Part shown: one piece after another, positions 42,736 to 45,301 of the stretch
Position numbering within the stretch: the stretch's first letter is position 1
Layout of the letters: every line of letters begins with the position of its first letter
NCBI GenBank assembly: GCA_947383695.1
Contig: OX376642.1
Coordinates: 372,001 to 436,000 of the forward strand
Reading direction: 5' to 3'
Source of the DNA: Actinomycetes bacterium
GTDB taxonomy: Bacteria > Actinomycetota > Actinomycetes > Nanopelagicales > Nanopelagicaceae
DNA length: 64,000 nucleotides
The notes under the pieces: model-generated
Database searches by the model: none
The model's input: only the letters and a program-made list of their open reading frames with translations
What the model was told of the DNA's origin: nothing
Program-made: the position numbers and the translations under genes

Positions 42736-43471
42736 CGATGTTTCCAACAATCAGCCACATTGCAACGACACCTGCAATTGTTGCAAGCATTGTTAAGCGA
42801 GATGGATGACGAGAGTGGGCCTCGGGCAAGATGTGAGAAGTTGCAAGGTAGATAACAAAACCTGAAAAGGCTGCCAAGTACAAAGCCATGGATTGATCTG
42901 AAAATGCGATGTAGCTTCCAAGTGCAGCACCGCTAATGCGCATCACAGCATCTGCGCCTAACAATAAAATCGAAGTCTTGGTCCAATGACCACTCTTAAT
43001 CAATAATGAAACAGTGTTGAGACCATCGCTAAATGCGTGTGCCAAGATTGCAATAAAGACGGCATAACCCAATGCATCACTAACTTTGAAAGCAAGACCA
43101 AGTGCAAGTCCATCTAGAAACACATGTCCTGCCATTGCAGCAGCACCTAGCGTGCCTGCGATGTTGAGCGAGTGTTCGTGATCGTGACCGTAATCGCTAT
43201 GGGCTGGTTCGTGAGAACCGAATAGCTGCTCAGCAAAGTGAAGTGTTAAAAAGCCGATCACTAATGCGATTGAAACAACGGGGACATTGCCGAAGGTAGA
43301 GGTATTCATCTCGAAAACTTCTGGCAATAGATCAAATGCGACAAGGCCCAGAAGAAGTCCGGCCGATAAACCTAGGACTAGGTGAAGACGATCCCTGACT
43401 TTGATGGCGATAAAGCCACCAGATGTTGTGGCTAGGGCTGTGAGTGCGGCAAGAGCAATGGCTGTATTCAT
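42728..43471 (-). CDS. ZIP-family divalent metal transporter
   Basis: A 247-residue membrane protein with about eight helices that brings zinc or iron into the cell. Metal-binding residues are in GHVFLDGLALGLAF (helix 4) and LAHAFSDGLNTVSLLI (helix 5), the ZIP signature. A His/Asp-rich loop (HEPAHSDYGHDHEHS) precedes them. Predicted leaderless: TAGGTT (43478-43483, minus) ends 6 nt before the ATG. The palindrome at 43492-43510 covers the -35, so metal repression through the co-encoded Zur is likely. Confidence 0.88.
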   Translation of the reverse strand: MNTAIALAALTALATTSGGFIAIKVRDRLHLVLGLSAGLLLGLVAFDLLPEVFEMNTSTFGNVPVVSIALVIGFLTLHFAEQLFGSHEPAHSDYGHDHEHSLNIAGTLGAAAMAGHVFLDGLALGLAFKVSDALGYAVFIAILAHAFSDGLNTVSLLIKSGHWTKTSILLLGADAVMRISGAALGSYIAFSDQSMALYLAAFSGFVIYLATSHILPEAHSRHPSRLTMLATIAGVVAMWLIVGNIGE

Positions 43472-43491
43472 GGATTGAACCTATCACAAAT

Positions 43492-43510
43492 GAAAATGAT
43501 TATCATTTCC
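43492..43510. promoter_or_regulatory. Fur/Zur-type box shared by zip-zur and a small monooxygenase gene
   Basis: GAAAATGATTATCATTTCC contains a perfect 15-bp palindrome AAATGATTATCATTT centred on 43501, close to the known Zur/Fur consensus. On one side the zip -10 (TAGGTT) lies 8 bp away. On the other, the monooxygenase -10 (TACGCT, 43524-43529) lies 13 bp away. One bound dimer could block both promoters. Confidence 0.8.
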
Positions 43511-43535
43511 ATCTGGAGCCCACTACGCTCAGCCC

Positions 43536-43820: not shown

Positions 43821-43921
43821 AATTCTCCTACGGAAGTAACACACGTTGCTTTTCGCCGACAGCCAGCCGGATGGGCAAGCCCATGTTTCACCGGCTCTTG
43901 AATTCGCCGGATGAGGTAGTG
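43818..43921 (+). promoter_or_regulatory. Promoter and structured leader of glyS
   Basis: TAAAAT (43818-43823) is a good -10 and would start an mRNA with a leader of about 90 nt. AGCCGG (43865) pairs with CCGGCT (43891-43896) around an inner ATGGG/CCCAT stem. Instead, CCGGC (43891-43895) can pair with GCCGG (43906-43910), close to the gaggt ribosome site. The folds exclude each other. The T-box core sequence is not present. Confidence 0.45.
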
Positions 43922-45301
43922 ATGGCAACGGACCGTTTAGAAAATATTGTAGGACTAGCAAAGCGTCGTGGGTTTGTTTACCCATCATCTGAAATTTATG
44001 GCGGACTTCGCGCATCATGGGATTACGGCCCACTAGGAGTCGAGCTCAAGAACAATGTAAAACGCCAATGGTGGAAGTCCATGGTTATGGGCCGCGAAGA
44101 TGTTGTCGGCCTTGATTCATGTGTGATCTTGGCAAAGGAAGTGTGGGAAGCATCGGGACACGTTGCAACATTTAGTGATCCACTCACTGAGTGCACCGCT
44201 TGTCACAAGCGTTACCGTGCAGATCACCTTGAAGAAGCGTACGAGGTAAAGCACAAGAAGAAGCCTGAATCCTTAACTGACATTAACTGCCCTGCATGCG
44301 GAAACAAGGGACAGTTCACAACACCAAAGCAGTTCAGTGGATTGCTTAAGACTTTTCTAGGACCTGTTGAAGATGAATCAGGTCTTGCATATTTGCGACC
44401 AGAAACAGCGCAAGGAATCTTTATTAACTTTGATCAGGTAATGACGACATCTCGCAAGAAGCCACCATTTGGTATCGGCCAAATTGGTAAATCTTTCCGT
44501 AATGAAATTACACCTGGAAACTTCATCTTCCGCACACGTGAATTTGAGCAGATGGAGATGGAGTTTTTCGTTGTTCCTGGAAGCGATGAAGAATGGCACC
44601 AGTACTGGATCGACACACGCCTTGCTTGGTATGTAGATCTTGGTATCAACCCAGATCGTTTGCGTATTTACGATCATCCAAAAGAGAAGCTGTCACACTA
44701 TTCAAAGCGCACAGCAGATATTGAATACAAGTTTGAATTCGCCGGAACTGAATGGGGCGAGCTCGAAGGTATTGCTAACCGTACAGATTTCGATCTGAAA
44801 GCCCACTCAGCTGCATCAGGTAAGGATCTTTCTTACTTTGATCAAGAAAAGGGTGAGCGTTGGACTCCTTATGTAATTGAGCCTGCGGCAGGTGTAGATC
44901 GTTGCACCCTGACCTTCTTGATGGATGCGTTCACTGAAGATGAAGCGCCAAATAGCAAGGGCGAGATGGAAAAGCGAGCAGTGCTAAAGCTTGATCATCG
45001 CTTAGCACCAATTAAGGCTGCGGTTTTGCCGTTGTCACGTAACGCAGACCTTTCACCAAAGGCCCGTGATCTTGCTACACAACTTCGCAAGAACTGGAAC
45101 ATTGATTTTGATGATGCAGGTGCAATCGGACGTCGTTATCGTCGCCAAGATGAGATCGGTACTCCATATTGCATCACCGTTGACTTCGAGACACTTGAAG
45201 ATAATGCGGTAACAATTCGCGATCGCGACACAATGGCGCAAGAGCGCATCGGCCTGGATCAGGTCGAGGCATGGTTAGCACCTCGTTTACTAGGTTGCTA
45301 A
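43922..45301 (+). CDS. glyS: Glycyl-tRNA synthetase (class II, dimeric type)
   Basis: Charges tRNA-Gly. 459 residues from the ATG at 43922; an open frame goes to 43871 but lies in the structured leader. The start [21 protein letters not shown] is usual. Motif 2 is [21 protein letters not shown], motif 3 is ...[14 protein letters not shown], and the C-terminal anticodon domain begins near [11 protein letters not shown] Cys-x2-Cys zinc-like pair (CTACHKRY...CPACGNKG) is present. This is the homodimeric type common to actinobacteria, archaea and eukaryotes, not the alpha2-beta2 type. Confidence 0.94.

Follow-up and report, generated by a model that had tools for sequence, protein, structure and literature searches.

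A conserved 21-bp site between zip-zur and an ABM-fold gene, a probable Zur operator in a Nanopelagicaceae genome

The window, that is, the whole stretch of 64,000 nucleotides analyzed here (positions 372,001 to 436,000 of contig OX376642.1), originates from an Actinomycetes bacterium of the family Nanopelagicaceae. It contains a zip-zur operon, coding for a zinc transporter and a Fur-family regulator, and a divergently oriented gene for a small ABM-fold protein, hereafter referred to as the ABM gene (Table 1). The intergenic region between zip and the ABM gene comprises 64 bp, in which the plus strand carries, in this order, AACCTA, TGAAAATGATTATCATTTCCA and TACGCT.

Table 1. Genes and regulatory elements of the zip-zur/ABM locus; positions are those of the window.
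Feature	Position	Strand	Evidence and remarks
zur, Fur-family zinc uptake regulator, 126 aa	42370-42750	-	overlaps the end of zip; FurB/Zur matches; zinc ligands
zip, ZIP-family zinc transporter, 247 aa	42728-43471	-	Pfam Zip, E 7.5e-18; first gene of the zip-zur operon
zip-zur extended -10 element, TGATAGGTT	43478-43486	-	sequence; TA and the extended -10 TG kept across 41 loci
Zur operator (predicted), TGAAAATGATTATCATTTCCA	43491-43511		21 bp; two overlapping 7-1-7 units; intergenic
ABM gene -10 element, TACGCT	43524-43529	+	TA-GCT columns at ~2 bits across relatives
ABM-fold protein, 94 aa	43536-43820	+	Pfam ABM, E 1.4e-5; AF2 pLDDT 92; divergent from zip-zur
glyS	43871-45301	+	Pfam; conserved downstream neighbor of the ABM gene

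The 15-bp palindrome AAATGATTATCATTT, which the preliminary description had placed between the two -10 elements and across both -35 positions, is found exactly there, at positions 43494-43508, and forms the core of a 21-bp element with which it shares its center at position 43501. The element consists of two overlapping 7-1-7 units, namely TGAAAATGATTATCA at 43491-43505 and the weaker TGGAAATGATAATCA, which is located on the other strand at 43497-43511. The -10 element of zip (TAGGTT on the minus strand, 43483-43478) ends 6 nt ahead of the ATG at 43471, and 6 nt also separate the -10 element of the ABM gene from its own ATG. Since each -10 element ends this close to the start codon and the spacing is conserved, both promoters are probably leaderless. 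Assuming a 17-bp spacer, both expected -35 positions coincide at 43501-43506, within the operator. The site thereby overlaps the core promoter of the zinc uptake gene, lying 19 bp from the zip ATG and covering the expected -35 position. The published 7-1-7 consensus of Zur boxes of Streptomyces, TGAAAATGATTTTCA (PMC2823685), is matched at 14 of 15 positions by the first unit and at all 15 in many relatives, and the operator sequence also fits the actinobacterial 21-bp Zur motif (PMC2823685, PMC5472717).

With a tolerance of three mismatches, the 15-mer is no commoner in the window than expected by chance (three matches found, 3.9 expected). The 19-bp core, searched with up to two mismatches, has a single location in the 1.43-Mb genome; the reversed pattern, used as a control, has no match in it. 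All other genomic matches to the 15-bp sequence with up to two mismatches fall within long open reading frames, leaving no second intergenic match of this kind as a further Zur target, and the Zur regulon of this genome apparently consists of a single intergenic operator. ZnuA was also sought in the genome and was not found. The strongest argument for a real site is its conservation: across 41 aligned loci, nearly all columns of the 21-bp operator are conserved, and conservation in the spacer toward the ABM gene is at most 0.5 bit. The distance between the box and the zip ATG is fixed at 19 to 21 bp (sd 0.7), as opposed to 24 to 48 bp (sd 5.1) between the box and the ABM start.

The preliminary description had left open whether the site responds to zinc or to iron, and the regulator itself settles this in favor of zinc. 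The best solved matches of the zur product in phmmer searches are FurB of Mycobacterium tuberculosis (2o03, E 3e-40) and Zur of S. coelicolor (3mwm/7vo0); the FurB/Zur structures range from E 3e-40 to 2e-37, and the next matches follow at around 1e-19. The structural four-cysteine site is complete (Cys83, Cys86, Cys123 and Cys126), and the ligands of both regulatory sites are present, with Asp59, Cys73, His78 and His80 in one and His77, His79, Glu98 and His115 in the other. All three zinc sites, C, M and D, are thus retained. The additional H36 site of S. coelicolor Zur is absent from this protein. The site names follow PMC11077047. Judged by its sequence, the co-encoded Fur-family regulator is Zur and not Fur.

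The genus Ca. Planktophila offers a comparison of loci with and without this regulator. Among the loci around the ABM gene of 80 named relatives, 38 carry both zur and the box, three carry zur without the box, 36 carry neither, and none has the box without zur; the remaining three are cut by contig ends, and the box is visible in two of these. The operator is therefore present in 38 of the 41 loci in which zur lies close to the ABM gene, as opposed to none of the 36 loci lacking zur. This pattern makes the co-encoded Zur the likely reader of the operator, in line with the earlier proposal that a metalloregulator site is read by the Fur-family protein encoded next to it. Alternatively, the site could be an iron operator that is read by another Fur-family protein of the iron or peroxide type. 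The core resembles the generic Fur box, and the genome does encode a second Fur-family protein (G000:C1:102327); however, this second gene occurs in most of the genus irrespective of the box, including the complete genome G098, in which a genome-wide search for a close zur yielded none. The zip/ABM spacers of loci lacking zur are devoid of the box, which in the window fits the Zur consensus and adjoins a zinc importer gene. Since the box follows zur rather than the second Fur-family gene, the iron reading was dropped and is considered extremely unlikely.

In the loci lacking zur, zip abuts uppS and the spacer between zip and the ABM gene is 31 to 32 bp long, once 51 bp. In these Planktophila strains (L130, L135, L164 and others), two leaderless -10 elements stand back to back between the start codons of zip and the ABM gene, and with the two ATGs only 31 to 32 bp apart, each -35 position would lie inside the coding sequence of the opposite gene. 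The three loci with zur and without the box are of two kinds. In L150 (1938-5285) and L152 (1973-5270), a znuA-znuC-znuB-zur operon takes the place of zip-zur; the DNA further upstream was read for one of the two, L152, and has Zur-like sites ahead of znuA. In this locus, the ABM gene follows 36 bp behind zur and is preceded by a Shine-Dalgarno sequence. The third exception, L168, carries zur, a degraded form of the box, TGAAAATGACAACCA, and a spacer of greater length. A further genome contains two copies of zur around 1.1 kb apart with identical match scores (G160:C1:354862-356370).

How many independent events underlie the contrast of 38 to 36 loci can be judged from gene trees. On a tree of glyS DNA, 16 changes in the presence of zur are counted, of which no fewer than 11 are forced by well-supported branches, and a single clade of zur presence is rejected. 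Only two changes are required on the zip tree and six on the tree of the ABM gene, and zur, zip and the box all lie within 1.2 kb. These trees suggest that strains have probably swapped the zip cassette as a unit, be it with zur and the box or without them; the region concerned runs from uppS to the ABM gene in loci L125-L204. The treatment of the contrast within the genus as many independent events was therefore dropped. Exchange of the cassette as a unit is the simplest reading, which calls for caution on INDEPENDENCE: the association of zur and box within the genus would then rest on few independent events. In other families, the box is located upstream of the ABM gene in 7 of 20 loci in which zip or znuA is divergent and in none of 34 loci without this layout (Fisher p 4e-4, a value that is indicative, as related genomes are included).

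Taken together, the 21-bp site most probably is a Zur operator that represses zip-zur in the presence of zinc, with any effect on the ABM gene being a by-product; we assign this reading a probability of roughly 0.85. Under zinc-sufficient conditions, zinc-loaded Zur would occupy the operator and block the leaderless zip-zur promoter. When zinc is low, Zur would leave the operator, allowing production of the ZIP importer and of Zur itself, so that the circuit would amount to simple negative feedback. Sequence comparison provides good support for zinc-dependent autorepression of zip-zur, and the autoregulation predicted in the preliminary description gains support from the conserved operator and its constant register with zip. 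Zur binding, repression, zinc dependence and the effect on the ABM gene are inferred here from knowledge of the family and from geometry. As Zur would also cover the -35 region of the ABM gene, whose start, on the opposite strand, is at a distance of 64 bp, it would probably lower transcription of this gene as well. In the window, repression of the ABM gene by Zur is thus probably a by-product of compact divergent promoters, a co-repression that the geometry renders plausible for this genome, and such an effect would be a consequence of promoter compaction rather than evidence for a function in zinc homeostasis.

It had been suggested that the ABM-fold protein takes part in the response to zinc or iron starvation. 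This would fit a scenario in which Zur controls the ABM gene in its own right, from an operator meant for both promoters, and the protein is of benefit under zinc starvation. Both -35 positions lie inside the box in the window, roughly half of the loci inspected across the class have the ABM gene next to zip, znu or zur genes, and in one lineage the ABM gene is apparently part of a znuACB-zur operon with Zur-like sites before znuA. However, the spacing between the box and the ABM gene is loose, varying between 24 and 48 bp; the ABM gene is retained in 36 loci that have neither zur nor the box; the box is retained where the ABM gene has been lost; and the family lacks conserved cysteine or histidine residues that would hint at a zinc-related role. 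Such a loss is seen in G138, a member of another genus of the same family, in which glyS has become the divergent neighbor of zip-zur (L287:3876-4022) and the Zur box has nevertheless been kept 19 bp from the zip start. Variable spacing, persistence of the ABM gene without zur and persistence of the box without the ABM gene speak against the box being maintained for the sake of this gene, which makes a deliberate dual operator rather unlikely; a role of the ABM gene in zinc starvation is not supported. Zur might also activate the ABM promoter or leave it unaffected, at least in those loci (9 of 39) in which the box is 40 to 48 bp away from the ABM start. There is a precedent in the Streptomyces gene zitB, which is activated by Zur from a box located 8 nt upstream of the -35 element (PMC5472717). 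In the window, however, the gap measures 30 bp and the box lies over the -35 position, from which repression is predicted, and activation or a lack of effect is regarded as very improbable.

A single Zur site shared by two divergent leaderless units has already been described in C. glutamicum, in which one 21-bp Zur motif in the 29-bp intergenic region of cg0042 and cg0043 was proposed to control both (PMC2823685). The locus described here resembles this case in combining a single motif, a short intergenic region and two divergent leaderless units; it differs in its target genes, and binding and expression were tested in C. glutamicum. The 15-bp 7-1-7 motif and the type of Zur are the same as for the znuA and zitB boxes of S. 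coelicolor (PMC5472717), whose Zur, however, controls a large regulon by repression as well as activation, in contrast to the single strong intergenic site found here. The literature searched contained no account of an ABM gene in Zur regulons, nor of Zur in acI bacteria, and no description was found in it of a Zur regulon with apparently just one site or of the cassette exchange, which are additions. The locus would represent a minimal zinc circuit in a highly abundant group of freshwater bacteria, consisting of one sensor, one importer and apparently one operator, and the lineages without both sensor and operator provide a natural experiment in unregulated zinc uptake.

The assignment of the ABM protein is based on a Pfam ABM (PF03992) score of 25.6 bits, above the curated cut-off of 23.1, and all 15 diverse family members match this model. 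Invariant residues are R6, G33, W55, G59, R62, R63, A64 and A87; among the 15 sequences, no conserved cysteine or histidine was found. Foldseek searches with the AF2 model retrieved SnoaB, RslO4 and PA3566 with TM scores of ~0.7-0.8. Comparisons of both profile and fold place the protein nearest, among solved structures, to the SnoaB-type enzymes, which are cofactor-independent ABM monooxygenases, at around 20% identity and without a polyketide pathway context at this locus. IsdG-type heme oxygenases, which also possess the ABM fold, are classic Fur targets, and IsdG is generally known to belong to a metal starvation regulon; the view that such a role is unusual for ABM-fold proteins was thus too strong. 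Unlike the IsdG/MhuD-type heme degraders, the family lacks a conserved histidine. Models of heme-degrading enzymes gave no significant match to the ABM protein (best, HmuQ, E 0.011), and an IsdG-type heme-degrading function was dropped for want of the catalytic histidine and of a significant profile match.

Across the class, the ABM protein was detected in 100 of 148 sampled genomes (E 0.001, some by weak matches only), and 30 of the 54 loci inspected have its gene beside zip, znu or zur genes, a recurrent neighborhood that seems to be undescribed in the literature searched. It is tempting to speculate that the ABM protein has a functional link to zinc uptake throughout the Actinomycetes, with its gene placed divergently from zip-zur or znuACB-zur or in one operon with them and co-expressed with them when zinc is scarce, which would make it an unrecognized member of the zinc starvation response; such a link is distinctly doubtful. 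The conserved ABM family beside zinc genes deserves to be flagged, with the proviso that a common operator is not proof of a common function. On its other side, the ABM gene is followed by glyS in nearly all class-wide loci. The true start of glyS may be near position 43922, as relatives align from around residue 18. GlyS carries a CxxC...CxxC zinc ribbon, and glyS adjoins zinc genes in many families.
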